Part shown: positions 1 through 20,234 of the stretch, piece by piece
How positions within the stretch are numbered: the stretch's first letter is position 1
Layout of the letters: every line of letters begins with the position of its first letter
NCBI RefSeq assembly: GCF_001951155.1
Contig: NZ_CP016359.1
Coordinates: 3,744,001 to 3,808,000, forward strand
From: Christiangramia flava JLT2011
GTDB lineage: Bacteria; Bacteroidota; Bacteroidia; Flavobacteriales; Flavobacteriaceae
Length of the DNA stretch: 64,000 nucleotides
Reading direction: 5' to 3'
The notes under the pieces: model-generated
Seen by the model: the letters and a program-made list of their open reading frames with translations, nothing else
The model's database searches: none
Told to the model about the DNA's origin: nothing
Translations under genes and position numbers: made by a program

Positions 1-1385
1 GATTTGAAAAAGAGGGAAAAATAGGTGGAATGGCCTGGATGGCAACGGCTATAAAATCAATTAGAAAAGAGAAAGGGAATGACCATATAATTCTGCTTGA
101 TGGCGGAGATACTTTTAGTGATGACCAGTTAGGGAATTTAACGAAAGGTGAAGCGATGATTCTGATGATGAATAAACTAAATTATGATTTGATGGTGCTG
201 GGAAATCATGATTTTGATTATAGCCTGGAGAGGACTCGTGAACTGGAGACAATGGCTAATTTTCCGATGCGTGCAGCCAACATAATAGATCAGGAAACCG
301 GAAGCCCAATCTTTCAAGATCCTTATATCATATTGGAAAGAGGTGATTTAAAAATTGGTTTGCTGCCAATTGGGTATAGGAATACTCCTCTAACAGGAAA
401 TTCTAAAAATATCAAAGGCTTAAAATTTATTAAGGGGATAGAAGCAGTTGACAAATATCTTCCTGAATTGAAAACCAAAGCCGATATTATTGTTTTGCTT
501 TCCCACGAAGGTATGGCGGTAGATAAAATAATAGCTGAAAAAATAAATGGGATTGATCTAATTATTGGCGCCCATAGCCATGATGTTATAGAACCACCAA
601 TTAAAATCAACCAGACCTACGTAGTGCAGGCTTTGTCTGATGCTGCAGTATTAGGTGAAACTGAAATGATAATTACAAATAAAAAATTGTCTGGCATCAA
701 AACGCGATATCACTATTTATGGCATGATACCTATACAGCAGATGAGGAACAGCAGAAATTAGTGAAAGAGCTTCGTAAGCCATTTGTGTCCCAACTAGAA
801 GAAAAAATTACACAAACCGATACAATTATTGGAAGACAATATAAATCTGAAAGCCCTTTTGATAAAGTAGTGACCACGTTGATGAAGGACAATTTCAAAA
901 CTGATGCCGCATTTCTTCCCGGTGTGGGATATGGGATTTCCTTAAAGGGAACTATTACCAGTGAGGATATATACAAGTTACTCCCTCATCCTGCAAAAAT
1001 TGTGACCCTGGAAATGACGGGAGATCAGATAAGAAAAACATTAGAGCAAACGGCTACAAATTTAAAGCCTGAAAATAAATTGGATATTGTGGGAGGTCTT
1101 ATTCAGTCATCGGGCATTCATTATCATGTAGATCTTTCCAGGCCTATTGGAAAACGGATATCAGATATAAAAATTAACAATGAGTCTTTAGTAGATAGCA
1201 AGCTATATAAAATTGCCACACATTCAGGTATGCTAAACGGGATTCATAATTATGCAGAATTTTCAAAAGGCACTAATATTGAAAAGACAGATATAATTCT
1301 AACTGAATTTATATTAGAGAAATTAAGAAAAGTAGCTGAGCTTGATTTTCCTGAAAATATGGGAGAGATTACCGTTACCAAATAA
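1..1385 (+). CDS. 5'-nucleotidase-family metallophosphoesterase (5' end outside window)
   Basis: The reading frame is open from base 3, so the gene begins left of the window and the ATG at 30 is internal. The N-terminal metal-binding DxH motif is missing for that reason. Visible family signatures are DGGDTF, GNHDFDY, LLSHEG and GAHSHD, the usual dinuclear-metal ligands. They are followed by a C-terminal 5'-nucleotidase substrate domain from about residue 230. The family hydrolyses nucleotides or related phosphoesters, usually in the periplasm; the signal peptide cannot be seen here. The DsrE-like gene follows 28 bp downstream, so the two are probably cotranscribed. The convergent SoxB-like gene is a distant paralogue. 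The substrate is unknown. Confidence 0.88.
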   Translation, partial: FEKEGKIGGMAWMATAIKSIRKEKGNDHIILLDGGDTFSDDQLGNLTKGEAMILMMNKLNYDLMVLGNHDFDYSLERTRELETMANFPMRAANIIDQETGSPIFQDPYIILERGDLKIGLLPIGYRNTPLTGNSKNIKGLKFIKGIEAVDKYLPELKTKADIIVLLSHEGMAVDKIIAEKINGIDLIIGAHSHDVIEPPIKINQTYVVQALSDAAVLGETEMIITNKKLSGIKTRYHYLWHDTYTADEEQQKLVKELRKPFVSQLEEKITQTDTIIGRQYKSESPFDKVVTTLMKDNFKTDAAFLPGVGYGISLKGTITSEDIYKLLPHPAKIVTLEMTGDQIRKTLEQTATNLKPENKLDIVGGLIQSSGIHYHVDLSRPIGKRISDIKINNESLVDSKLYKIATHSGMLNGIHNYAEFSKGTNIEKTDIILTEFILEKLRKVAELDFPENMGEITVTK

Positions 1386-1413
1386 TCTTTACTTTGATTA
1401 AAAAAAGATTTTT

Positions 1414-1941
1414 ATGAAAACAACATTAAAGATTTTAATAATTCTTACAATCAGTTTTCAAATGAAAGCACAGGAATGGCAGACTCCTGAAATAGAAGGT
1501 TATGGGAAGATCAAGTATTTTGAAGATGCAGCTGAATTACCTGACACTTCCCTAACCTATAAAATGATTTTTAATATTGATAGCGAAAAGGAAAAAGAAG
1601 GTGTTAACGTGGGGTTATGGAGAATTGCCCGGACCTTGAATATACTAAAAGCCGGAAATATATCTAATGAAAAGATTGATATTGTGGCTGTTTTACATGG
1701 AGAGGCCACTTATGCGATTTTAACTGACAAAGAATATAAAAAGCGTTTTCAAACCCAAAATCCCAATATGGGGTTATTAAGGCTTTTAAAAGAAAACGGA
1801 GTGACAGTTTTGGTTTGTGGGCAGGCTATGGCTTCAAGAAATATAGAAAAAGAACACCTCAATTTGTATGTTGAAATGGCTCTTTCAGCTTTAACTGTCT
1901 TACCGAACTATCAGTTAAAAGGCTATGCATTGATTCCTTAA
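1414..1941 (+). CDS. Exported DsrE/DsrF-like protein
   Basis: The 175-residue product starts with a hydrophobic signal peptide of about 19 residues ending near MKAQ, so it is probably periplasmic. The rest fits the DsrE/YchN-like fold: a beta strand (KMIFNID), a helix with GLWRIARTLNIL, then IDIVAVLHG and VTVLVCGQAMASR. The cysteine in VLVCG sits where DsrE-family proteins keep a persulfide-carrying cysteine. Family members bind or relay sulfane sulfur, but the role of the exported flavobacterial branch is not established. Placement next to a nucleotidase-family enzyme and a sulfur locus supports a sulfur role by inference only. Confidence 0.75.
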   Translation: MKTTLKILIILTISFQMKAQEWQTPEIEGYGKIKYFEDAAELPDTSLTYKMIFNIDSEKEKEGVNVGLWRIARTLNILKAGNISNEKIDIVAVLHGEATYAILTDKEYKKRFQTQNPNMGLLRLLKENGVTVLVCGQAMASRNIEKEHLNLYVEMALSALTVLPNYQLKGYALIP

Positions 1942-3493: not shown

Positions 3494-5572
3494 TTAATCC
3501 TCCTTATTCTGAATTATCCCTGTCGAAGCAATATTCTTTTCTTGTCTTGCATCGAATTCCTTTAAACCATTGTCTAAAAATTCAATGAAATTTTCAACAT
3601 TTAGATCATAGCCTTTTGGAGCACTCAATAAAGAGCCACTAGTATCAACCAGCGTATAATATGGTTGCGCATTGGCGTTTAGCTTTTGGATCATGAAATC
3701 CAGATTCTGTTTGCCAATGGTTTTTTTAACTTTTTGATCATGGGCTGAAACATACCATTCAGATTCTGGTAATTCTGTTTTTTCATCTACATATAGCGCT
3801 ACTACCACATAATCGTTTTTCAGCCGTTTCAAAACCCTTGGATCACTCCAGACTGTAGCTTCCATTTCACGGCAATTAACGCAGCCATGACCTGTAAAGT
3901 CAATAAAAATGGGTTTATTTTGCTTTTGCGCACATTCCAATGCCTGATCATAATCAAAATATCCCTGGATATTGTGAGGTAATTCCAGAAGGTCATTATA
4001 TTTCGGAGTTCCGCAATTTGTAATATTACTATCAACTTCGTTTTCACTTACCAGAGTTGAAGTATTCATGTTAAAATTTTGGCTGCTCATAGGTGGTAAA
4101 TATCCTGCTAATGGTTTTAATGGTGCACCAAATAATCCCGGAATCAAATAGACCACAAAGCTAAATATTAATATAGCCGATATGACTCTGTATACTGAAG
4201 CACTTTCCGTTTTCTTTTCATGTGGAAATTGAATTTTACCCAACAGGTAAAATCCAAGAAATGCAAAAATCACAATCCAAAGAGCTAAATAAATATCGCG
4301 GTCAAGAAATTCCCAGTGATAAACCTGGTCCACTATACTCAAAAATTTCAGGGCTAATGCCAATTCCACAAACCCCAGAACAACCTTAACCGTATTGAGC
4401 CAGCCTCCACTTTTGGGTAATGATTTTAACCAATGGGGAAATATTGCAAACAGCGTAAAAGGCAGTGCAAATGCCAGCGAAAACCCTAGCATCCCAATTA
4501 GGGGTTTTATAGTTTCCCCATTAGCCGCTTGCAATAAAATTGTTCCTGCAATTGGCCCGGTACAACTAAAACCAACCAGCACTAAAGTAAAAGCCATAAA
4601 AAAAATACCTAACAAACCACCTTTGTTAGATTGTGCATCTATTTTATTCACAAATGAATTTGGCAGACGGATCTCAAATAATCCAAAAAAGGATAGTGCA
4701 AATAGTAGAAAAACTGCAAAGAAAAAAAGATTGGGTAGCCAATGTGTACTAAGAAAATTAGCGAAATCGGCACCAAACAATAAAGAAAACACTGTTCCTA
4801 TTAACGTATAAATCAGAATAATCGAAAAACCATATAATAATGCCTGACTTATTCCATTTGCCCGACTGATGTTAGATTTTGTGAAATAGGTTACTGTCAT
4901 GGGAATCATAGGAAAAACACAAGGTGTTAACAAAGCTGCCAGACCGGCCCCAAAGGATAGTAGAAAAAAGGTAAGAAGGAAAGCTCCGCCTTCCTCCTTT
5001 TCTTCTATTTTAAACTCATTCTTAAAAGATTTCAATTCTTTTGAGGATATAAGATCATTTCCATCTTTTATGCTGGCACTCTGATTTTGTAAAAAATCCT
5101 CTTTCTTGCTGTTCCATACCAAATCCGTTTCAAAGGGGATACACTGTCCTGTAACATCAGAACATATTTGATAAATGGCTACAGCTTCTATTTTGGGTAC
5201 ACTGCTTCTAATCTTAATACGCTGTTGAAATTCAGCTATACCCGTAAAATAAGTGTACTTACCTCCCCATAATTCGTCATATTTTTCTTTTGGGTCAACA
5301 GGGATGAGATCACCAATAACTTCATAAGATTGATTTTCACCAAAATTAATCTCGGTAAGCATCGGTCCCAGTTCGGGATCAAAGTCGCTTGAATATAAAT
5401 ACCAGTCGGCAGGAACCTCTGCCTGAAAACTGATTACGATCGTATCTCCCGGTTCTAGTTTTTCTTTATCTACAGACACCTCCCAATTCGGTGGATCCAT
5501 CACCTGGCCATAACTTGATAAGGAGCTGATGAAAATACTCAGCAAGAACATTAAGAATTTAATATATCTCAT
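3494..5572 (-). CDS. dsbD: Thiol:disulfide interchange protein DsbD
   Basis: The 692-residue, three-part protein carries electrons from cytoplasmic thioredoxin to periplasmic thiol proteins. A signal peptide is followed by an N-terminal domain (about 25-155) with paired cysteines in ICSDVTGQC. A membrane core of about eight helices (about 190-480) contains the redox cysteines of LLTPCVFPMIP and FSCTGPIAG. The C-terminal thioredoxin domain (about 540-670) has CVNC followed by REME. Length and order match full-length DsbD. The gene lies 36 bp downstream of the TlpA-like thioredoxin and 73 bp upstream of the SoxB-like gene, so the three probably form a unit that supplies reductant to a periplasmic sulfur or cytochrome pathway. 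Confidence 0.93.
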   Translation of the reverse strand: MRYIKFLMFLLSIFISSLSSYGQVMDPPNWEVSVDKEKLEPGDTIVISFQAEVPADWYLYSSDFDPELGPMLTEINFGENQSYEVIGDLIPVDPKEKYDELWGGKYTYFTGIAEFQQRIKIRSSVPKIEAVAIYQICSDVTGQCIPFETDLVWNSKKEDFLQNQSASIKDGNDLISSKELKSFKNEFKIEEKEEGGAFLLTFFLLSFGAGLAALLTPCVFPMIPMTVTYFTKSNISRANGISQALLYGFSIILIYTLIGTVFSLLFGADFANFLSTHWLPNLFFFAVFLLFALSFFGLFEIRLPNSFVNKIDAQSNKGGLLGIFFMAFTLVLVGFSCTGPIAGTILLQAANGETIKPLIGMLGFSLAFALPFTLFAIFPHWLKSLPKSGGWLNTVKVVLGFVELALALKFLSIVDQVYHWEFLDRDIYLALWIVIFAFLGFYLLGKIQFPHEKKTESASVYRVISAILIFSFVVYLIPGLFGAPLKPLAGYLPPMSSQNFNMNTSTLVSENEVDSNITNCGTPKYNDLLELPHNIQGYFDYDQALECAQKQNKPIFIDFTGHGCVNCREMEATVWSDPRVLKRLKNDYVVVALYVDEKTELPESEWYVSAHDQKVKKTIGKQNLDFMIQKLNANAQPYYTLVDTSGSLLSAPKGYDLNVENFIEFLDNGLKEFDARQEKNIASTGIIQNKED

Positions 5573-5608: not shown

Positions 5609-6205
5609 CTATTTGAGACCGTCTAGAAATTCTTTGAATTCCTGAGTGTCGTAATCTCCCATACCCTGATGAGTTAAGGCCAGATTTCCATCTGCATCTA
5701 TAATATAAGTAGTGGGGATTGCCTGGGAAGCGTACATTTGAGGCAAGTTTCCGGCCAATTTATATACTTCAAAATCATAACCTTTCCTCTTATTAAAATC
5801 TATAGCTTTTTGAAATTCATTATCTAAAGAAAGCATTATAAAGGCAACTTCTTCACCTTTTACATCATTGTACATATTATTTATTCCCGGCATTTCTGCC
5901 ACACAGGGAGGACACCAGGTTGCCCACATATTAAAGAAAATGACTTTACCTCGAAATTCTTCCATTTCAACGCGTTCACCCTTAGAATTGATAAGGCTCA
6001 TGTTGAAATCGGCTTTAGGTTTTTTGGCTTGTTCTTTCGGATTTGATTTTGCTTCTACATCTGGATTCATTAATCCCGTCTTTAAAACTCCTCGTTGTAC
6101 AAAACCAAAAACTTCGGTATGTAATCCGGTTAAAAATAAGGTGAGTATAATCGTTCCTGTAATACCATATTCGAGAAGATTTTTCTTTACTTTTTTATTC
6201 ATCAC
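5609..6205 (-). CDS. TlpA/ResA-like membrane-anchored thioredoxin
   Basis: The 198-residue protein has one N-terminal membrane anchor (about 12-35, ending GLHTEVFGFVQRG) and a thioredoxin domain from about residue 65. The active site is WATWCPPC, the TlpA/ResA/SoxW type. The proline loop is AIPTTYIID. It should face the periplasm and reduce disulfides using electrons from the DsbD encoded 36 bp downstream. Two Met codons are adjacent at the start; the first is used here. The pair could serve cytochrome c maturation generally, but adjacency to the SoxB-like gene suggests a SoxVW-like job. Confidence 0.88.
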   Translation of the reverse strand: MMNKKVKKNLLEYGITGTIILTLFLTGLHTEVFGFVQRGVLKTGLMNPDVEAKSNPKEQAKKPKADFNMSLINSKGERVEMEEFRGKVIFFNMWATWCPPCVAEMPGINNMYNDVKGEEVAFIMLSLDNEFQKAIDFNKRKGYDFEVYKLAGNLPQMYASQAIPTTYIIDADGNLALTHQGMGDYDTQEFKEFLDGLK

Positions 6206-6356: not shown

Positions 6357-6707
6357 TCAGGATAATTTAGGAGGAGGAACAAATTTGTAAGTAAATGCCC
6401 TTGTTTCGGCATAAATGTGTTTGAAATTCCTTTTGAAATTGAGCTGAATAACAACTTCATCTTCCAGTTGTTTTTCTATCTGAAATACGGAATTACAAAA
6501 CGAATGAAAAGTAATTTGAATTCCATCAGATGACTGGTTAAAGTTACCATCTAAAGACTTCTTACCAGCATTCAAATCACAATGTTTCTTTACATAACTA
6601 ATTTTGTCTGAATTTACGATCTCCCCCAGAATATTTGAATCCAGGGCAATTAACTTACCAAACATAATAAGGGCAAGAATTATTGCTATGTATGATCGTA
6701 GGTTCAT
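6357..6707 (-). CDS. Small exported protein of unknown function
   Basis: I place the start at 6707 (MNLRSYIAIILAL), because an upstream in-frame Met at 6749 lies inside an operator palindrome. The 116-residue product has a signal peptide and two cysteines (KKHCDLN and HSFCNSV). It ends in a proline-rich PPPKLS tail like that of several small flavobacterial copper or redox proteins. Its promoter has a perfect TACTTTTG -7 element at 6713-6720, and the GTAACATTTGTTAC palindrome is centred 33 bp upstream of it. The gene therefore looks like a member of the Crp/Fnr regulon, and its mRNA should have almost no leader. I do not recognise a function. Confidence 0.65.
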   Translation of the reverse strand: MNLRSYIAIILALIMFGKLIALDSNILGEIVNSDKISYVKKHCDLNAGKKSLDGNFNQSSDGIQITFHSFCNSVFQIEKQLEDEVVIQLNFKRNFKHIYAETRAFTYKFVPPPKLS

Positions 6708-6712
6708 AAAGT

Positions 6713-6756
6713 CAAAAGTAATGAACAGTATGAGTAGATCAAGTAACATTTGTTAC
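6713..6756 (-). promoter_or_regulatory. Promoter with Crp/Fnr-type operator (site 1)
   Basis: GTAACATTTGTTAC (6743-6756) is an inverted repeat, GTAAC-N4-GTTAC. A perfect Bacteroidota -7 element, TACTTTTG on the minus strand, lies at 6713-6720. Centre-to-centre distance is 33 bp, which puts the operator near -41, the class II activator position for Crp/Fnr proteins. The site lies between the stop of the Crp/Fnr gene and the start at 6707. Confidence 0.75.
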
Positions 6757-6770
6757 ATAACCAAGGGAAA

Positions 6771-7403
6771 TTATAAATCAATTATTACAATACTATTTCT
6801 GCGTAATGAAATTTTACCTTCCATCTCTAAGGTTTTTAGCAATCTGGAAATAACAACACGGGAAGTATGAAGATCGTAAGCGATGTCCTGATGTGTTATT
6901 TGCAGGATTTCATTTTGATTTACCTTTGCCTTATCCTGCAAATATTGAAACAATCTTTTATCCATCTTAAGAAATGCTACTGAATCTATTGCATCCAGCA
7001 TTTCCTTAAGTCGTAAGCTGTAACTTTGAAAAACAAAGGTTCGCCAGGATTTATATTTTACAATCCATTCCTCCATTTTTCCTACAGGAACCATAATTAA
7101 ACTGGTATCCTTCTCGGTAACTGCTTTTATATCACTTTTACTTCTATCTAAACAACAAGTGAGTGTAACTGCGCACGTATCTCCTCTTTCAAGGAAATAG
7201 AGTAATAACTCGTCACCATCATCATCTACCCGGGAAATTTTTATAGCTCCATCCAGTAATAAAGGTATAGAGGTAACGTACTCTTCTGCACTTAAAATTA
7301 CTTCTCCAGCAGGAATTTCCTTAAAGGTCCCAATTTCAGATATTTCATTTAGCAATTCCTCTTCGAACACAAAGGAATAGGCTTCATATAAATCAGTTTT
7401 CAT
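6771..7403 (-). CDS. Crp/Fnr-family transcriptional regulator
   Basis: I place the start at 7403 (MKTDLYEAY), which avoids overlap with the transporter gene ending at 7417. The protein is 210 residues. It has a cyclic-nucleotide-binding-like beta barrel (about 25-125) and a C-terminal winged helix with THQDIAYDLHTSRVVISRLLK (about 163-185). Three cysteines (C77, C83, C84) cluster in GDTCAVTLTCC, where Fnr-like proteins often have effector contacts, so thiol or persulfide sensing is possible but unproven. It is the last gene of the YeeE/YedE operon, whose promoter carries the same palindrome found at three other promoters nearby. It is therefore the obvious candidate to bind GTAAC-N4-GTTAC and to autoregulate. 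Confidence 0.9.
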   Translation of the reverse strand: MKTDLYEAYSFVFEEELLNEISEIGTFKEIPAGEVILSAEEYVTSIPLLLDGAIKISRVDDDGDELLLYFLERGDTCAVTLTCCLDRSKSDIKAVTEKDTSLIMVPVGKMEEWIVKYKSWRTFVFQSYSLRLKEMLDAIDSVAFLKMDKRLFQYLQDKAKVNQNEILQITHQDIAYDLHTSRVVISRLLKTLEMEGKISLRRNSIVIIDL

Positions 7404-7416
7404 AGCAGAAGCTTTT

Positions 7417-7833
7417 TTAATGAGGAAGTTTATTTCGCAACAGGCCATATACAAAGGTTCCGAATAAAGCAGCCGCGATCACCACCAGTATCGAAATATA
7501 ACCAGCTCCTGCAAGCACATACATAGGACCCGGGCAGGCACCGGCAAGGGCCCAACCCAATCCAAAAATGATCCCACCAATTAAGTAACGGGCAATGCTT
7601 TTATCTTTTGGCTTTAACTGCATCTCCTGCCCGCCCATCGCTTTTATATTATTTCTCTTTATATATTGAACACCCAGCACACCGATAATTAATGCCGAAC
7701 CAATTATTCCATACATATGGAACGCTCCAAATTCAAACATTTCATAAATTCTGAACCAGGAAGCTGCTTCAGATTTATACATTATAATACCAAAAAAGAA
7801 TCCGATTAAAACGTAGGTAATATATCTCATCAT
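7417..7833 (-). CDS. YeeE/YedE-family transporter, second half (DUF6691-type)
   Basis: The 138-residue membrane protein has about four helices and the signature LGWALAGACPGPMYVLAG, which contains the conserved cysteine of YeeE/YedE (TsuA-like) thiosulfate or sulfur transporters. It corresponds to the C-terminal half of the fused family members. The N-terminal half is encoded immediately upstream (7834-8391), with stop and start directly adjacent (TAAATG). The two products presumably assemble into one channel-like transporter in the inner membrane. Thiosulfate is the best-supported substrate in the family; persulfide or other sulfur anions cannot be excluded. Confidence 0.88.
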   Translation of the reverse strand: MMRYITYVLIGFFFGIIMYKSEAASWFRIYEMFEFGAFHMYGIIGSALIIGVLGVQYIKRNNIKAMGGQEMQLKPKDKSIARYLIGGIIFGLGWALAGACPGPMYVLAGAGYISILVVIAAALFGTFVYGLLRNKLPH

Positions 7834-8391
7834 TTAAAATATTAATGGGTAAAATAAATGTATCATTATAAGACCACCAATAAAAAAGCCAATTACGGCA
7901 ATTAAGGAAGGTAGTTGCAGGTTGCTTAATCCTGATATTGCATGCCCTGAAGTACAACCACCCGCGTACCTGGCCCCGAAGCCAACCAAAAAACCACCGG
8001 CGATCAATACAAATAAAACAAGCGGATCACCCAGATTCTGCATAGCAAAAATTTCGGTAGGCATATAAGCTTCTCCCGCACTATGGATACCATATTCATT
8101 GCTTAATTTATCTGCCAGTCTTTCATTTATTTCTACCGTATTATTGGATAGATATGTAGAAGCAAAAAAACCACCCAGTACAGCACCTAAAACCACCATA
8201 AGGTTCCATCTCTCTTTCTTCCAGTCAAACCTAAAGAAATCGGCCGCTTTACCGGCCCCTGTCGCAGAACACATGGTACGTAGGTTAGAAGACATTCCAA
8301 ATTGTTTTCCCGTATAGAGCAACACGAACATCGTTGCCGCAATTAAAGGCCCGGAAATATACCAGGGCCAGGGTTCGTAGATCAATTCCAT
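7834..8391 (-). CDS. YeeE/YedE-family transporter, first half
   Basis: The 185-residue inner-membrane protein contains the second conserved YeeE/YedE cysteine motif, ARYAGGCTSGHAISG (about 140-155), and about five helices. It is the partner half of the product encoded at 7417-7833. It is the first gene of a three-gene operon with that gene and the Crp/Fnr regulator. Its promoter has GTAACCTTTGTTAC centred 33 bp upstream of a TATATTCG -7-like element, leaving a leader of about 14 nt. The operon is therefore probably activated by its own regulator in response to sulfur compounds or redox state. Import of thiosulfate is inferred from the family. Confidence 0.9.
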   Translation of the reverse strand: MELIYEPWPWYISGPLIAATMFVLLYTGKQFGMSSNLRTMCSATGAGKAADFFRFDWKKERWNLMVVLGAVLGGFFASTYLSNNTVEINERLADKLSNEYGIHSAGEAYMPTEIFAMQNLGDPLVLFVLIAGGFLVGFGARYAGGCTSGHAISGLSNLQLPSLIAVIGFFIGGLIMIHLFYPLIF

Positions 8392-8408
8392 TATATATTA
8401 TTTTTAGG

Positions 8409-8452
8409 CGAATATATTGAATAGGCAGTGCATACTCGGTAACCTTTGTTAC
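8409..8452 (-). promoter_or_regulatory. Promoter with Crp/Fnr-type operator (site 2)
   Basis: GTAACCTTTGTTAC lies at 8439-8452, and a -7-like TATATTCG (minus strand; one mismatch to TAnnTTTG) at 8409-8416. The 33-bp centre spacing is the same as at sites 1 and 4. It drives the YeeE/YedE-Crp operon. Confidence 0.7.
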
Positions 8453-8524
8453 ATACTGCAATAGAACTCTAAAATCAAAAATTTAAAATTTTCACGTCGT
8501 ATCGATTTAGAATACATAGCCTGC

Positions 8525-9739
8525 CTACGGTTCTGAATTTATTTTTTCAGGCATTCTTAATTTAATTATTCCTGCCGAACATATGGTTATTATACCAATT
8601 GAAATAATTGCAAAAGGAACGCCAAGTAGGTCAGCAATAATTCCTGATAGGATCGCTCCAATGGCATAACCCGAATCACGCCAAAATCTAAAAGCACCAA
8701 TACTTTCAGCACGTTGGGTAGGATTGGTTGCCGTGGCGATTGCGGATAAGAAGGTTGGATACACCAATGCCGTACCTAATCCTAAAATAAAAGCGATAGC
8801 CACCATAAATATAAAATCTTCTGTAAATGGCAGAATGAGGATTGCGATCCCCTGTAATAACATTCCCCAGAAAAGTAATCCCTTTTTTGAGTAAATATCA
8901 GACATCCTACCGGTAAATAATTGACCTATCCCCCATACGGTAGGGTAAACTGCCGTAATGATACCAATGGATTTCGAATCATAATCTGCCTGCAAAAGAA
9001 TAATGGGTAACAATCCCCAAATCATTCCGTCGTTCAAATTATTAACCAGTCCTGCCTGGGTAACAGAGCTTAAAGTCCTGTTTCGGAAAGTAGTATCTAA
9101 AAAAACATTTTTTAAAGAAGAAGTACTATTACTATCCTTTTCTATTGCTACAAATGTCCTGGTATCTTTTATAAAAAGATAGCTCATTATTAAACCCACC
9201 ACAGAGATCCCTATTCCAATATAAAAAGGATAAGGTGTGATCCCATACTTATTTGCAACATAGCCAGATAAAAACGCAATTATTCCTACGGCAAGGTAAC
9301 CCGAGAACTCGTTTAGCCCCATCGCCAATCCACGGTTCTTCTCGCCTACCAGATCAATTTTCATGACTACCGTACTACTCCAGGTTAAACCCTGGTTAAT
9401 CCCTAAAAGAATATTGGCAAAAATCACCCAATTCCAGGATGTTGCATACATTAAAATAAAAGGGATAGGAATGGCAAACAGCCAGCCGAAAACCAACAAA
9501 GGTTTTCTGCCAAACCTGTTGGCAAATCTTCCGGTCATTAAATTAGTAACGGCCTTGGTAATACCAAAGGCCGTTATAAAAGATAGAATCGCAGTATTAG
9601 ATTCTATACCAAAAATCTCCTGGGCGTATTGGGGGAAGATACTTCTCTCCAGTCCCACCATTCCTCCAACAAAAGCATTTATTAAAACCAGTAAGGAAAA
9701 CTGTTTCCAGTTTTCCTTTAAGCCAAGTTTTTGGTTCAT
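8525..9739 (-). CDS. MFS transporter
   Basis: The 404-residue, 12-helix major facilitator protein has the loop 2-3 signature GRFANRFGRKPLL and the symmetric GRMSDIYSKKG in the second half. Its ATG overlaps the stop of the MBL/rhodanese gene by one base (TAATG), indicating translational coupling. It should move a small solute across the inner membrane. Given its tight coupling to a persulfide-processing enzyme, a sulfur-containing substrate or product is a reasonable guess, but nothing in the sequence fixes the substrate or direction. Confidence 0.88.
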   Translation of the reverse strand: MNQKLGLKENWKQFSLLVLINAFVGGMVGLERSIFPQYAQEIFGIESNTAILSFITAFGITKAVTNLMTGRFANRFGRKPLLVFGWLFAIPIPFILMYATSWNWVIFANILLGINQGLTWSSTVVMKIDLVGEKNRGLAMGLNEFSGYLAVGIIAFLSGYVANKYGITPYPFYIGIGISVVGLIMSYLFIKDTRTFVAIEKDSNSTSSLKNVFLDTTFRNRTLSSVTQAGLVNNLNDGMIWGLLPIILLQADYDSKSIGIITAVYPTVWGIGQLFTGRMSDIYSKKGLLFWGMLLQGIAILILPFTEDFIFMVAIAFILGLGTALVYPTFLSAIATATNPTQRAESIGAFRFWRDSGYAIGAILSGIIADLLGVPFAIISIGIITICSAGIIKLRMPEKINSEP

Positions 9740-11079
9740 TAGGATTTATATTTTTTTACATCCTCGCTTAAGTCATAAACCGCAACTTCCTCAATTTCAC
9801 TTTCTATAATACTGCTACCGGCAGCACTACGATATCCTCCGGCACAATGCACTACCAGGGGCTTATTTTTAGGTAAATCACCAATCTTATTACGTAGTTC
9901 ATTTAAAGGGATATGATAAGAATTTTCAAAGATTTTAGCCTCAGAAACTTCAGCATCATTACGAATATCTACAATCGTATAGTTTTCTTTATTTTCATCG
10001 AAAGTTGCCACATCAAATTTTTCCGAAGAATTTGTAATCTTATCAGATAAAGTAAAAATTCCTTTTAATTGTTTTTCGTAACCAATTTTTGCAAGCCTTT
10101 CAAGGATTTCATCCAGTTTATCAATTGTTTCCAGTACTAAATAGAATTGTTCTTCAGGTTCAATAATAGCTCCAAGCCAGGTTTCAAATTTATCGTTTTC
10201 ACTCCGCGCCATGATATTGATACTATAGGGAAGATGACTCTTTTTATAAATCTGCTCATCCCTGGTATCTACTACAAGAAATTCATCTTCAATATTTTCA
10301 ACATTTAAATGTATTGGTACTCTATATTTAGCAGCCTGGACATTTTCTGCACCATCCCGATTAAGATCTACGTTGAAACCAAAATAAGAGGGTATAAATG
10401 GTTGATCCTTTAAAATTTCAGAAACAAATTCTTCTTCGGTTTGCTTTTTAAAAGCCCAGTTACCCATACGTTCATTGCCTAAAGTACTGCTATTGGCATC
10501 ACTCATATTCTTACCACATAACGAACCTGCACCGTGAGCAGGATAAACTATAGCCTCATCTGGTAAATCATCGAATTTATTTTGAATAGACTGATACATC
10601 ATTTGAGCAAGCTCTTTACGCTTTGATTTCGTATTTCCGGCTTTTTCCCTTAAATCCGGACGCCCCACATCCCCAATAAATAAGGTGTCCCCGGTAAATA
10701 GAACATGCTCATCCTTATCAAATGCATGAAAGGTCAAACTATCCGGAGAATGCCCAGGTGTGAATATTGGCTTGATGGTAACATCTCCTATGGTAATACT
10801 ATCCCCTTCATCAAAGCTTTGATGGGGATAGTTTACCCCAACTTTTTCACTGATATAAATAGTGGCTCCCGTTTCTTTATGAATCTGAAGATGGCCGCTT
10901 ACAAAATCGGCATGCGGGTGTGTTTCCAGGACAGCTACAATCTTAGCATTTTCTTCTTCAGCATATTTATAATACTGGATTGGATTTCTGGCGGGATCAA
11001 TTAAAGCCATTTCTCCATTACTTACCAGAGCATAAGAAAAATGTGATAATGGATCATCTTTAAACTGTTTTATCTTCAT
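9739..11079 (-). CDS. Persulfide dioxygenase-like MBL fold protein with two rhodanese domains
   Basis: The 446-residue protein has three parts. The metallo-beta-lactamase domain (about 1-230) carries ETHPHADFVSGH, FTGDTLFIGDVGRPD and YPAHGAG, the mononuclear iron ligands of ETHE1-like persulfide dioxygenases. The first rhodanese-like domain (about 265-350) has no active-site cysteine. The second (about 360-446) has VVHCAGGYRS with the catalytic cysteine. ETHE1-rhodanese fusions oxidise glutathione persulfide and exchange sulfane sulfur between persulfide, sulfite and thiosulfate. The gene is first in an operon with the MFS transporter and has the GTAACAATTGTTAC operator upstream. A close paralogue begins at 63014. 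Confidence 0.92.
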   Translation of the reverse strand: MKIKQFKDDPLSHFSYALVSNGEMALIDPARNPIQYYKYAEEENAKIVAVLETHPHADFVSGHLQIHKETGATIYISEKVGVNYPHQSFDEGDSITIGDVTIKPIFTPGHSPDSLTFHAFDKDEHVLFTGDTLFIGDVGRPDLREKAGNTKSKRKELAQMMYQSIQNKFDDLPDEAIVYPAHGAGSLCGKNMSDANSSTLGNERMGNWAFKKQTEEEFVSEILKDQPFIPSYFGFNVDLNRDGAENVQAAKYRVPIHLNVENIEDEFLVVDTRDEQIYKKSHLPYSINIMARSENDKFETWLGAIIEPEEQFYLVLETIDKLDEILERLAKIGYEKQLKGIFTLSDKITNSSEKFDVATFDENKENYTIVDIRNDAEVSEAKIFENSYHIPLNELRNKIGDLPKNKPLVVHCAGGYRSAAGSSIIESEIEEVAVYDLSEDVKKYKS

Positions 11080-11103
11080 AACTTATATTTTAAATTTCTA
11101 CTG

Positions 11104-11147
11104 TAAAATTGCCAAATACAATTGAAACCTACAGTAACAATTGTTAC
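11104..11147 (-). promoter_or_regulatory. Crp/Fnr-type operator (site 3)
   Basis: GTAACAATTGTTAC at 11134-11147 is a perfect 14-bp palindrome, the best of the four. At the 33-bp position (11104-11111) the minus strand reads CAATTTTA, a poor -7 match; TGTATTTG at 11113-11120 is an alternative. The site lies 55-68 bp upstream of the MBL/rhodanese start. Confidence 0.7.
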
Positions 11148-11164
11148 GTGCCTGAATCGCTATG

Positions 11165-11770
11165 TCAGATTCTTTTTGCAACCATACGAATAACGCTGCT
11201 TTTGCCCTGATGATATTCTCCTTCCTTCTGGTTTATTCCTAGCTCTTCAAGATATTGGATTGTTAAACCTGAAAATTCACTTTTCATCTCTTCAATGGAA
11301 AATAGCATCTTTAAATCTTTAGGTCCGCCGGAATTGTAACTTAATTGTTTTTTTGAGAATGCTTCAAAAATCAAAACTCCACCGGGCTTTAAAAGATTAA
11401 TTAAGTGCTGGTGGCTTTTAATCCTTATATCGGCGTCAAAATGAGCATAAATAAGGGCTATCACATCAAATTTTCTATCACTTTGGAAATTTAATACAGA
11501 AGAAACCTTGAAATTTATATCCACTTCATTCTTTTGTGCAAGGCGTAAGGCTTTAATTTTTGCCATAGTACTGAGATCAAAGGCAGTCACATCCCAGCCC
11601 TGTTTGGAAGCAAAAACAGCATTTCGTCCTTCTCCCTCAGCAGGTAGAAAAATAGATGCTGGTTCTAACTTCTTTAGCTCGTTTTGAAGGAAAACATTTG
11701 GTTGTTCCCCATAGGCGTACTCCCGTTCACTATATCTATCTTCCCAGAATTCCTTAGTTTTATCGGTCAT
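11165..11770 (-). CDS. Class I SAM-dependent methyltransferase (TehB/thiopurine-type)
   Basis: The 201-residue cytoplasmic protein opens with FWEDRYSEREYAYG, typical of small thiol, tellurite or thiopurine methyltransferases. The SAM-binding motif I is LPAEGEGRNAVFA, and the acidic strand end is VTAFDLS. Motif IV is FDVIALIYAHFD, followed by LKPGGVLIFEAF. Members methylate soft nucleophiles such as sulfide, thiols, tellurite or selenite. It lies 15 bp downstream of the rhodanese gene and within the sulfur cluster, so methylation of a toxic thiol or sulfide is plausible. The substrate is inferred from context only. Confidence 0.85.
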   Translation of the reverse strand: MTDKTKEFWEDRYSEREYAYGEQPNVFLQNELKKLEPASIFLPAEGEGRNAVFASKQGWDVTAFDLSTMAKIKALRLAQKNEVDINFKVSSVLNFQSDRKFDVIALIYAHFDADIRIKSHQHLINLLKPGGVLIFEAFSKKQLSYNSGGPKDLKMLFSIEEMKSEFSGLTIQYLEELGINQKEGEYHQGKSSVIRMVAKRI

Positions 11771-11785
11771 CCTATTAAAATAAAT

Positions 11786-12103
11786 CTAGAATACCGGTTT
11801 AGAGAGCTCCTTATTCCATTGCATAATACCACCACTAAGATTATACGTTTTAAAACCTTTGGATTCCATAATTTTACAAGCCTGCCCACTTCTGTTTCCA
11901 CTACGACAGTATATATAATAATTTCTATCTTTATTCAAACCTGTTATCTCCCTTTGAAAAGTGACGGGCTCAAATAGATTAATTAATCTCGCATTAGGTA
12001 TTATACCATCTTTCCATTCTTTGGGGGTTCGCACATCTATGATCACAGCATTTTTATCCTGTTTGATTTTATGAGCAAAATCATCTGTATTTAAATTTTC
12101 CAT
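11786..12103 (-). CDS. Single-domain rhodanese
   Basis: The 105-residue protein is one rhodanese domain with the structural motif AVIIDVRTPKEW and active-site loop YCRSGNRSG, in which the cysteine carries the persulfide. There is no signal peptide, so it acts in the cytoplasm and probably passes sulfane sulfur between persulfide donors and acceptors such as sulfite or cyanide. It sits between the TauE/SafE exporter (23 bp) and the methyltransferase (15 bp), in an operon controlled by operator site 4. Confidence 0.92.
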   Translation of the reverse strand: MENLNTDDFAHKIKQDKNAVIIDVRTPKEWKDGIIPNARLINLFEPVTFQREITGLNKDRNYYIYCRSGNRSGQACKIMESKGFKTYNLSGGIMQWNKELSKPVF

Positions 12104-12126
12104 TTATTTTTAATTTGAATTGTTAT

Positions 12127-12942
12127 CTAATTTTTAACGAAGAATTCCATGTAGAAAATGAATCCGGCCATAAGGAATATAAAGTAACCGAAACCTTTTT
12201 TTAAACGGGCTCCATTAATATAATTGCTTAAATAGGAGCCTATAAAAATCCCCGTAAAAGAAAGGGCCGTAATTATACCTAGGAATACCCAGTCTATTTC
12301 CATGGTTATGGCATCTCCCAAAAAGAAGCCCAGTAGAGATTTAAAAGCAATTATAATGAGCGAAGTTCCCACCGCGGTCTTCATTTCAATGTTTGCCAAA
12401 ATGACTAAAGCGGGAATAATAAGAAAGCCTCCCCCGGCACCAATCATTCCTGTAATAGCTCCTACAATTAAACCTTCAACCAGAATTAGCGGATAATTAT
12501 ATTTTACCTCTTTATTTTTTTCCTGGTCTGTATCAGGAGACTTTTTTCGCAACATGGAAAAAGCAGCGGGTATCATAAGCACGGCAAATAACCCGAACAT
12601 GGCCATCCTTCTGGTAAATTCAAATTCCTGAATAAAAAACAATGTTTCAGGTAAAGCCGGAACCACATAATGCCTAACAATTGTGACACCTATAACAGCA
12701 GGAATACCGAAAATCACTGCCGTTTTCCAGTCTACATAACCTTTATAATGTTGTTGAATCCCACCTACCAGGGCACTGGCCCCAACTATAAATAAAGAAT
12801 AGGCGGTAGCCACCCTCTCCCCCATGGAGAAAAGATATGCCAGCACTGGTACTGCGAGAATAGAACCACCGCCACCTATTAAACCAAGTGAGATCCCTAT
12901 AATAAGAGAACTTACATAACCAAAAATTTCAAGTAATTCCAT
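12127..12942 (-). CDS. TauE/SafE-family sulfite/organosulfonate exporter
   Basis: The 271-residue membrane protein has two homologous halves, each with a glycine-rich motif (LIGGGGSILAVPVL near residue 22 and MIGAGGGFLIIPAL near residue 165) and about eight helices. The family exports sulfite, sulfoacetate or related anions. It is the first gene of a three-gene operon with a rhodanese and a methyltransferase. The promoter has a perfect TAATTTTG -7 element, with the Crp/Fnr-type operator centred 33 bp upstream. Export of sulfite made by the persulfide dioxygenase is a coherent but unproven role. Confidence 0.9.
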   Translation of the reverse strand: MELLEIFGYVSSLIIGISLGLIGGGGSILAVPVLAYLFSMGERVATAYSLFIVGASALVGGIQQHYKGYVDWKTAVIFGIPAVIGVTIVRHYVVPALPETLFFIQEFEFTRRMAMFGLFAVLMIPAAFSMLRKKSPDTDQEKNKEVKYNYPLILVEGLIVGAITGMIGAGGGFLIIPALVILANIEMKTAVGTSLIIIAFKSLLGFFLGDAITMEIDWVFLGIITALSFTGIFIGSYLSNYINGARLKKGFGYFIFLMAGFIFYMEFFVKN

Positions 12943-12964
12943 TTATCAATTTTTTAATTGACAA

Positions 12965-13008
12965 CAAAATTAACTTTATGCTTTAGTAGCTACAGTAACA
13001 TTTGTAAC
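12965..13008 (-). promoter_or_regulatory. Promoter with Crp/Fnr-type operator (site 4)
   Basis: The operator at 12995-13008 reads GTAACATTTGTAAC on the plus strand, with one half-site imperfect. The minus-strand -7 element TAATTTTG at 12965-12972 is a perfect TAnnTTTG. Centre spacing is again 33 bp, and the expected leader is about 19 nt to the TauE/SafE start at 12942. Confidence 0.68.
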
Positions 13009-18257: not shown

Positions 18258-20234
18258 TTATTTCCAGTTCATATTCTGCAAACGGATTGCATTGAGGATA
18301 GCTAACATTGCAACTCCAACATCTGCAAATACCGCCTCCCACATTGTTGCCATTCCGAAAGCACCTAAGACCATAACGGCTATTTTAACACCAAATGCCA
18401 AAGCAATATTCTGCCACACAATTTTTCTAGTGGATCGGCCTATTTTAATGGCCTGTGCGATTTTAGAAGGCTGGTCTGTTTGAATGATGACATCTGCAGT
18501 TTCAATAGCTACATCGCTTCCCAAACCACCCATTGCTATGCTAACATCACTTGTTGCAAGGACGGGTGCATCGTTAATACCGTCACCTACAAAAGCAACT
18601 TTAACTCCTACCTGTTTTTTTAAAGATTCTACTTCATCGAGTTTATCTTCCGGTAACAATCCACCTATGGCCTGATCTAATCCTATTTCTCTACCAAGCT
18701 CTCTGGTAATACAATCCTTGTCGCCAGAGAGCATTATAATTTTCGATATTCCGGTTTTACGAATTTCTTTGATCGCTTGATGTGCATCTTCTTTCAGCTC
18801 ATCAGCTATAGTGACGTAACCAGCAAAATCACCATCAATAGCCACCAATATTACAGATTCTACAATTTTATTTATTTCAGTTGGAGATATGATATCGTGG
18901 GAATCCAATAGTTCTTTATTACCAATCAAAACAGATTTATCTGTAACTATTCCTTTTAATCCCTTTCCTGCAACCTCACTTACCTGGGATGCTTTATAAG
19001 CTGAATTATCTTTTTTATAATCCATGATAGCCTTAGCTATAGGATGAGTTGACTGTTCCTCTATCGCCCAGAGGTATTTCATTAATTCTTCTTCCGTAAC
19101 TTCAGGGCTACTTACAATTTCCTTTATTTTAAACACTCCTTTGGTAAGGGTCCCAGTTTTATCCAACACAACCGTATTTATCTTGGTCATGGTATCCAGA
19201 AAAGATGCGCCTTTAAAGAGGATTCCGTTACGAGACGCTGCACCCAAACCTCCGAAATAACCTAATGGGATAGAAATTACGAGAGCACACGGACATGAAA
19301 TTACCAGAAAAATTAATGCCTTATAAAACCAATCCTGGAATATATAATTATCAACAAAGAAGTAGGGTAGAAAGGTTAGGCCAATCGCAAGGAATACAAC
19401 TATTGGCGTATAAACCCTGGCGAATTTTCGGATGAATAATTCTGTTTTTGACTTACGGGCTGTGGCATTCTGAACCATATCCAGGATCTGGGCAATTGAA
19501 CTGTCCTTAAATTCCTTTGTGGTTTCAATTTGAATAACATCATTAAGATTAATGCTTCCGGCAAATACGGTTGAGCCTTTTGCGATAGTATCTGGTTTGC
19601 TTTCCCCTGTAAGGGCCGCCGTATTTAAGGAGGCTTTATGAGATAACAGTTTTCCATCCAATGGAACTTTCTCCCCTACCCGAACTTGAATTTTCGAACC
19701 AATTTTCACAGATTCAGGTGGCACCGAAACATAATTATTATTTTGATACAGTAAGGCTTCATTAGGTCTTACATCCAACAAGGCCTTGATATTTCCCTTA
19801 GCTTTTTTTACAGCAGAAGCCTGGAAAAGTTCCCCTACCGCATAGAATAACATTACTGCTACCCCTTCGGGGTATTGACCTATAATAAAAGCACCAATAG
19901 TGGCAATGGACATTAAAAGGAACTCTGTAAAGAAATCCCCATTTTTAATACTTTTCCAACCTTCCTTCATTACAGGTAAACCTACGGGTATATAGGCCAC
20001 AGCATACCAGAGGATTCTAATCCAGCTGGAAAAACGGGAAAATGTTCCCAGGTAATCTAATAGAATTCCTATAATTAAAAACAGGAAGCTAAAAATAGCT
20101 GGAATGTAAACATTAAAACTCGGTTTGTTTGCAACTAATTCTTCCTCATTACCAGCCATACTTCCGCAACAATCTTCTGATTCCTGAATGGAACAGGAAG
20201 TTTCTTCTGAAATAACTGAATTCTTTTCTTTCAT
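18258..20234 (-). CDS. Zn2+/Cd2+/Pb2+ P1B-2-type ATPase (CadA/ZntA-like)
   Basis: The 658-residue metal pump has a short cysteine-rich N-terminus (CSIQESEDCC) instead of an HMA domain. Eight transmembrane helices carry the metal-binding CPCALVISIPL motif and a C-terminal DVGVAMLAILNAIRL motif, both typical of the Zn/Cd/Pb subgroup. The actuator loop has TGES, the phosphorylation site is DKTGTLTKG and the hinge is GDGINDAP. It exports divalent soft metals from the cytoplasm. It is immediately preceded in its operon (5 bp) by a CDF transporter that has lost its 5' half, so the operon's original promoter is gone. Whether it is still transcribed is unclear. Confidence 0.93.
   Translation of the reverse strand: MKEKNSVISEETSCSIQESEDCCGSMAGNEEELVANKPSFNVYIPAIFSFLFLIIGILLDYLGTFSRFSSWIRILWYAVAYIPVGLPVMKEGWKSIKNGDFFTEFLLMSIATIGAFIIGQYPEGVAVMLFYAVGELFQASAVKKAKGNIKALLDVRPNEALLYQNNNYVSVPPESVKIGSKIQVRVGEKVPLDGKLLSHKASLNTAALTGESKPDTIAKGSTVFAGSINLNDVIQIETTKEFKDSSIAQILDMVQNATARKSKTELFIRKFARVYTPIVVFLAIGLTFLPYFFVDNYIFQDWFYKALIFLVISCPCALVISIPLGYFGGLGAASRNGILFKGASFLDTMTKINTVVLDKTGTLTKGVFKIKEIVSSPEVTEEELMKYLWAIEEQSTHPIAKAIMDYKKDNSAYKASQVSEVAGKGLKGIVTDKSVLIGNKELLDSHDIISPTEINKIVESVILVAIDGDFAGYVTIADELKEDAHQAIKEIRKTGISKIIMLSGDKDCITRELGREIGLDQAIGGLLPEDKLDEVESLKKQVGVKVAFVGDGINDAPVLATSDVSIAMGGLGSDVAIETADVIIQTDQPSKIAQAIKIGRSTRKIVWQNIALAFGVKIAVMVLGAFGMATMWEAVFADVGVAMLAILNAIRLQNMNWK

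Follow-up and report, generated by a model that had tools for sequence, protein, structure and literature searches.

CstR, SqrR/BigR, SoxR and FisR are persulfide sensors with reactive cysteines that control persulfide dioxygenase (PDO), rhodanese, SQR or thiosulfate genes. These proteins are mostly repressors and belong to families other than Crp/Fnr. Within the Crp/Fnr superfamily, E. coli CRP contacts cAMP through Glu72 and Arg82. Two further Crp/Fnr regulators are close to the system reported here. In PMC1274295, HcpR2 is assigned the operator consensus GTAACnnnnGTTAC and a regulon predicted to consist of hcp only in most Bacteroides. For NtcA of cyanobacteria, PMC3898017 describes class II activation from a GTA-N8-TAC operator near -41.5, with 22 nt to the -10 box in one promoter. 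In this study, we analyzed a stretch of 64,000 nucleotides from the 4.0 Mb genome of the marine bacterium Christiangramia flava JLT2011 (G000:C1:3744001-3808000, the window), in which a gene for a Crp/Fnr regulator of 210 aa (6771..7403, minus strand) lies among sulfur genes. The initial annotation had proposed a four-promoter Crp/Fnr regulon with fixed operator spacing. Our results confirm this observation and extend it to a predicted widespread class II Crp/Fnr sulfur regulon. Probably, this regulator is a class II activator of sulfur oxidation and detoxification, with sulfane sulfur as its presumptive signal.

Bacteroidota promoters carry -33 and -7 elements, the latter of the form TAnnTTTG (our literature search gave no match for this arrangement). 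We found four GTAAC-N4-GTTAC-type palindromes in the window, all read on the minus strand. The first, GTAACAAATGTTAC (6743..6756), is perfect and lies in the promoter of a unit formed by a small ORF of 116 aa (ORF116) and the TlpA and DsbD genes, with the -7 element TACTTTTG at 6713..6720. The second, GTAACAAAGGTTAC (8439..8452), is also perfect and precedes the YeeE-YeeE-crp unit, with TATATTCG at 8409..8416. The third, GTAACAATTGTTAC (11134..11147), is a perfect palindrome in the promoter of the PDO-like gene and an MFS gene, and is followed by the weak -7-like sequence CAATTTTA (11104..11111). The fourth, GTTACAAATGTTAC (12995..13008), has one mismatch and belongs to the TauE-rhodanese-methyltransferase promoter, with TAATTTTG at 12965..12972. 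The extents of these units are predicted from spacing and strand. In all four cases the 8-mer is centered 33.0 bp downstream of the operator center, equivalent to a gap of 22 bp. Hence, the four palindromes, the exact 33 bp distance for three of them and the perfect palindrome with a weak -7 at the remaining one were all correctly described by the initial annotation. This fixed distance implies an operator center near -41 in the predicted promoters, that is, a class II layout with the operator at one set distance from the core promoter.

Such sites are rare in random sequence. Compared with 200 first-order Markov sequences of window length, the window holds three perfect palindromes against a mean of 0.035 (maximum 1), and three composites against a mean of 0.025 (maximum 1). 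Composites were defined in this test as a palindrome with at most one mismatch, a -7 score of at least 5/6 and a gap of 22, and it is the site at 11134 that misses the -7 threshold. Allowing up to two mismatches, 32 matches were found where 18.8 were expected, a figure reached in none of 100 shuffles. Conservation at orthologous promoters, which had been suggested as a check, was also observed: Christiangramia oceanisediminis (L195) and Gramella sp. AN32 (L196) each carry all four sites. In both, the -7 element at 8409 is kept, the weak one at 11104 is the same 8-mer, and the one at 12965 reads TAATTTCG. The operator at 6743 is additionally kept in L200 and occurs as a variant in L197; in L196 it is still found, although its small-ORF unit is located some 8.5 kb past crp. 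In the window (6357-6720) the small ORF starts 5 nt past the -7 element. With 5-6 nt, the distance is much the same in L195, L196, L197 and L200, which would leave the mRNA with hardly any leader.

The regulon extends beyond the window. The C. flava genome contains 17 perfect palindromes, 15 of them in three sulfur clusters. The first cluster (1.899-1.905 Mb) comprises a YeeE-type pair, a methyltransferase, an SQR-like enzyme, a rhodanese, a PDO-like fusion and TauE. The second (3.173-3.191 Mb) contains another Crp/Fnr paralogue together with a TauE-like protein, cytochrome bd, DoxX, a fatty-acid-hydroxylase family member and a PDO-like fusion. The third (3.741-3.755 Mb), which includes three of the window sites, encodes DsrE, DoxX, DUF302, a SoxA/TsdA-type cytochrome and a SoxB-like protein. 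In these clusters, the SQR label derives from a 232-bit match to type III SQR (cut-off 525), the PDO label from domain architecture, the SoxA label from a 41-bit match (cut-off 110) together with the Pfam SoxA-TsdA domain, and the labels of the YeeE, methyltransferase and second-cluster TauE (L012) genes from resemblance to window proteins. A lone perfect site at 767536 is found upstream of a second SoxA/TsdA-type cytochrome gene. The proposed four-promoter regulon was therefore right in its sulfur targets and exact spacing and wrong in its size, which amounts to about 16 promoters in this genome.

One spacing predominates. Scoring the -7 element over the 17 perfect sites and the fourth window site, with the better side taken at each of 70 gaps, gave a mean of 5.28/6 at gap 22, whereas the 69 other gaps average 2.43 (sd 0.29), the runner-up reaching 3.22 over these 18 sites; 15 of the 18 score 5 or 6 at gap 22. 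We then searched 59 relatives and 296 phylum genomes for composite sites (GTAACN4GTTAC-N{12,32}-TAnnTTTG, gaps of 12-32 permitted), with the backwards-read pattern as control. Gap 22 accounts for 109 of the 122 composites in the relatives, against 8 control matches over all gaps by our own count, and for 61 of the 90 in the phylum sample (9 of the C. flava sites are included in each figure). The phylum control gave about 62 matches over all 21 gaps, again by our count; hence, the excess resides in the gap-22 class rather than in the palindrome at any gap. This regularity bears on whether the palindromes might be repressor sites overlapping promoters, as could be expected from the precedent of CstR, SqrR/BigR and SoxR, which act as repressors. 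We consider repression quite unlikely, because a repressor would not need one single register. The operator coincides with the -33 position and keeps a single exact distance to the -7 element, as in the class II NtcA promoters (PMC3898017), and in several divergent promoter pairs the same palindrome shows this distance to either side. In G000:3743703, G017:C35:2300 and L079:3531, a -7 element lies 22 bp off on either side of the same palindrome, and coordinates indicate further two-sided palindromes in G398, G408 and G411 of genus g33. One dimer could therefore serve two divergent class II promoters.

We fetched 61 gap-22 sites from other genera (52/52 of the phylum sample and 9/16 further ones from the relatives set), 60 of which have a downstream ORF. 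Labels were mostly assigned by BLAST to C. flava proteins; in the TolC, SulP and DUF983 groups, one member was scanned with Pfam and the others were assigned by their similarity to it. The first gene is of a sulfur type (PDO-like, rhodanese, TauE, SulP, SQR-like, TlpA, YeeE or weakly DsrE-like) at 35 of the 60 sites. The PDO-like fusion is the commonest (14), followed by TolC-like (13), rhodanese (7), TauE (6), SulP (3), DUF983 (3), SQR-like (2) and Tll0287-like genes (2); TlpA, YeeE, DsrE-like, CydA, ORF116-like and Hcp occur once each, and the other four carry no label. The label of the lone DsrE-like target is weak, its reference (L012:15397-15819) having no Pfam match. The TolC-like outer-membrane factor thus ranks second among the targets outside the genus (L094, L096, L097, L099, L103, L109, L110, L111, L114, L120, L125, L131 and L132). 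In L120, HlyD and ACR_tran (RND) genes come next, and two more loci look alike. Small DUF983-type proteins also recur at the composite promoter (L113 by Pfam; L124, L136 and L201 by resemblance).

These targets also help to weigh the relationship with HcpR2, which shares the Crp/Fnr fold, an identical operator consensus and a position 181 tied to the operator (PMC1274295). The sites might belong to an HcpR2-type nitrosative-stress regulator, the sulfur genes being an extension of its regulon. The HcpR2 consensus is described ahead of hcp, Bacteroides included, in PMC1274295, and a composite site is found upstream of hcp/prismane in G293, a genome without any clade member at E 1e-30. On balance, we regard an HcpR2-type origin as improbable: sulfur genes are found at 35 sites versus hcp at one, position 181 is Pro in HcpR2 (PMC1274295) and Val in the window regulator, and no prismane gene (PF03063) was found in the C. 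flava genome by a search that matched in 5 of 14 control genomes. Membership of the window regulator in HcpR2 was rejected on the same grounds, Val183 in place of Pro and PF03063 not found in its genome, even though the operator agrees. For the dedicated regulon initially ascribed to the locus Crp/Fnr gene, the sulfur targets and the association of the sites with the clade stand, but the operator is not private to it, since HcpR2 shares it. The operator has already been published for HcpR2, as has the geometry for NtcA.

As for the regulator itself, PF00027 and PF13545 score above cut-off and fold matches agree, placing it in the Crp/Fnr superfamily. Its AlphaFold model (mean pLDDT 87.9) supports this fold in Foldseek, a search that retrieved no specific relative. 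The closest named Crp/Fnr match is from C. oceanisediminis (100% over 210 aa). The recognition helix reads TSRVVISR, and Val183 aligns to CRP Glu181. Compared with E. coli CRP, the fold, the domain order and the Arg180 and Arg185 positions are kept, but Val replaces Glu181 and the Glu72 and Arg82 positions are not kept in the profile alignment. Membership in cAMP-CRP was rejected (49.3 bits vs the curated cut-off of 266, cAMP contacts not kept), as was membership in NtcA (48.5 bits vs 244.95). NtcA shares R-V in the aligned recognition helix and differs in its 2-oxoglutarate signal, its role in nitrogen control, its -10 element and the lack of cysteine in the aligned pocket segment. The closest solved chain by sequence is 3dv8 (125 bits), an uncharacterized Crp/Fnr protein with cysteines at the Cys77 and Cys83 positions. 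It comes from Eubacterium rectale, which belongs to a phylum other than Bacteroidota, and we know of no regulon for it.

The genome of C. flava encodes a second paralogue (G000:3171894-3172523), 66% identical to the window regulator and with nearly the same recognition helix; the locus Crp/Fnr gene therefore need not be the sole regulator. There are nine PF13545 matches in this genome: five above cut-off, one more that looks Crp-like and three resembling other families. Among the six Crp/Fnr proteins, the TSRVV-SR helix is confined to the two paralogues. Within the genus, a window-type regulator (at least 84% identity) occurs in 5/24 genomes and the 63-69% type in 24/24, which makes the window locus an accessory second set. 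The suggested check on co-occurrence of the sites with this clade gave a positive result. In the phylum sample, the clade (at least 190 bits) is present in 25/296 genomes, and a gap-22 site was found in 20 of these 25 versus 6 of the 271 without it. Two of the five clade genomes lacking such a site, G245 and G094, carry a Glu-type helix, G094 with two GTGAC gap-22 composites. In a single genus (149 genomes, threshold 200 bits), two or more composites at any gap of 12-32 occur in 44/61 clade genomes versus 5/88 others, among the matches listed.

Sister regulators differ at the position aligned to CRP Glu181, and this difference tracks, with exceptions, the A or G in the half-site in our sequence comparison. 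Of 104 loci, 103 have an alignable homologue, L019 (22% identical) being left untyped; 69 homologues carry Val, 33 Glu and one Ala. When composites near the homologues are scored without regard to half-site position 3, this position is A 187, T 14, G 9 and C 2 times in Val loci, and G 53 and A 29 times in Glu loci, overlapping hits counted. Considering the best two gap-22 sites per locus, no G is seen in 51/54 Val loci and at least one G in 19/19 Glu loci, while 29 of the 103 loci lack a scored site. When each locus is typed by its majority letter, Val loci have A in 53 cases and are undecided or without site in 16, and Glu loci have G in 8 and are undecided or without site in 25; Glu loci are often undecided because many mix GTGAC and GTTAC. 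A GTGAC search of the 296 genomes gave 17 composites, 10 of them at gap 22 by our count: seven in genomes with a Glu homologue, two with Val and one untyped. One of the seven, G145, has both types, with a GTGAC-N4-GTCAC composite beside the Glu copy and a GTAAC one 0.4 kb on. That position 181 sets the operator base is a general rule already published (PMC1274295); the new part is its use between sister sulfur regulators.

The cysteines of the window regulator are Cys77, Cys83 and Cys84 only. Cys77 is present in 103/103 aligned homologues, and in alignment A1 (39 sequences) its column is among the 12 that do not vary. In profile alignments to CRP (4bh9/1hw5) it falls just ahead of the phosphate-binding cassette, and in the same segment against NtcA. 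The AlphaFold model is least confident in the stretch surrounding the cysteines (blocks 71-90). It is plausible that the regulator senses sulfane sulfur through a thiol, and the most likely signal would be a persulfide or another sulfane-sulfur species reacting with Cys77. More tentatively, at somewhat below even chance, these proteins may form a Bacteroidota Crp/Fnr subfamily in which the cyclic-nucleotide phosphate-binding region turned into a thiol switch, with Cys77, often together with Cys83/84, reading persulfide or polysulfide directly, and which would act family-wide as a class II sulfur-oxidation activator with a Val/Glu switch between GTAAC and GTGAC. The same regulon and geometry could also respond to another signal, such as oxygen or the redox state, a small ligand, or a cofactor (Fe-S cluster or metal) at the cysteines, and we give this a substantial probability, if one short of a half. 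Cytochrome bd and thiol-redox genes belong to the regulon, a single conserved cysteine fits redox or cofactor chemistry equally well, and, outside the genus, only the PDO-like fusion is targeted more often than the RND efflux operon. For sulfane sulfur speaks that the PDO-like fusion heads the targets, and the C-x5-CC spacing differs from the FNR cluster motif. A subgroup with a single cysteine (ESCIMSFLGGLH type) comprises L167, L181, L184, L186, L188 and L194, plus L169 with Ala. Its helix is mostly of the Val type, several members have GTAAC-like sites, and TauE lies nearby in L167, L169, L186, L188 and L194. It is possibly a sister regulator.

Several of our observations are at odds with a sulfane-sulfur-responsive class II regulon. 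The PDO promoter (site 11134) has a weak -7, the perfect site at 1103136 is intragenic and lacks one, and the site G000:3190782 (L013:10783) combines a perfect operator and a perfect -7 with no plausible downstream protein gene. Matches with at most one mismatch are not enriched genome-wide (97 vs 216 for the backwards-read pattern). This figure and the intragenic site would fit chance palindromes in AT-rich intergenic DNA, but the Markov controls, the spacing distribution and the conservation at orthologous promoters leave chance a next to negligible probability. The co-occurrence statistics of the clade are not independent of descent. In addition, we had to reject the idea that only the Val clade uses the site: clade-less g33 genomes have perfect sites, and 12 of 14 sites fetched from them precede rhodanese-like ORFs. 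In the four such genomes with a fetched homologue, this is of the Glu type, and close to it lie TauE, PDO- or SQR-like genes and sites of the GTGAC type. With regard to the recognition code, the three independent Val/Glu contrasts in a quick tree from which the helix columns were omitted are all concordant and not significant. G218 has a Glu homologue and yet two GTAAC gap-22 sites, and G024 and G098 have Val homologues with one GTGAC gap-22 composite each. Finally, the Cys83-Cys84 pair is not general (both in 67/103, at least one of the two in 83/103), and its use as a mark of sulfur regulators was unsupported: sulfur neighbours were found for 27/41 pair-bearing versus 10/20 single-cysteine homologues (p = 0.27), a test that excluded the window-genus loci L017-L043. 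The lack of a clear link argues against a simple two-thiol relay.

Bearing these points in mind, we propose that the class II regulon would operate as follows. The Crp/Fnr regulator (6771-7403) would bind GTAAC-N4-GTTAC about 41 bp upstream of the transcription starts, and the paralogue at G000:3171894 very likely binds the same operators and may share the work. The operator would replace the -33 element, its fixed 22 bp to the TAnnTTTG -7 allowing class II activation of the sulfur operons. Predicted members include the YeeE pairs and TauE for transport, and the SQR-like enzyme elsewhere in the genome, the PDO-like fusions and the rhodaneses for sulfide and persulfide oxidation, together with SoxA/TsdA-type cytochromes, DoxX and periplasmic thiol-redox proteins. 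Since crp itself lies within a controlled operon, positive autoregulation may be anticipated.

The window genes, all on the minus strand unless noted, encode a TauE/SafE-family permease (12127..12942, PF01925), a single-domain rhodanese (11786..12103, PF00581) and, by domain scan, a TehB/TPMT-like SAM methyltransferase (11165..11770). The putative PDO (9739..11079) is a fusion of a metallo-beta-lactamase domain and rhodanese domains (PF00753 + PF00581), and scores 54.8 bits against Blh NF040641 (cut-off 625). It is followed by the MFS transporter (8525..9739, PF07690), a YeeE/YedE-type (Sulf_transp) transporter half (7834..8391, PF04143; TsuA NF052577 41.6 bits, under the cut-off of 400) and a second such half (DUF6691/Sulf_transp, domain scan; 7417..7833). 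Beyond crp, ORF116 (6357..6707) has a hydrophobic N-terminus and no family match, and profile matches identify a TlpA/ResA-like thioredoxin (5609..6205) and a DsbD-like thiol:disulfide interchange protein (3494..5572). On the plus strand, the 3' part of a SoxB-like gene (ending at 1385; SoxB TIGR04486 277 bits, cut-off 550) and a DsrE-family gene (1414-1941) occupy 1..1941; this pair is probably read from the divergent operator G000:3743703, which lies outside the window, some 290 bp to its left. At G000:3190782, a small RNA or an antisense transcript over the opposite-strand ORF L013:10853-11491 is possible. By appearance, ArsR, mercury-type, CzcA-like RND and P-type metal ATPase genes flank the sulfur genes (L014:1828-9599, window 18258-20234), which suggests an accessory metal/sulfur island.

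Among the open-access papers listed in our searches, we found no described regulator of sulfide or thiosulfate genes, nor a Crp/Fnr regulator of persulfide dioxygenase, for Bacteroidota. Genes handling sulfide and thiosulfate are present in many members of this phylum, and the window regulator is a candidate for sulfur sensing by a Crp-type protein. The combination of operator, 22-bp gap and -7 element provides a predictive rule that locates sulfur operons in unannotated genomes and flags unexpected members, such as the TolC-HlyD-RND efflux operon, DUF983 proteins and small ORFs. If the thiol-switch Crp/Fnr subfamily proves true, it would represent a class of sulfane-sulfur sensors outside CstR, SqrR/BigR, SoxR and FisR.

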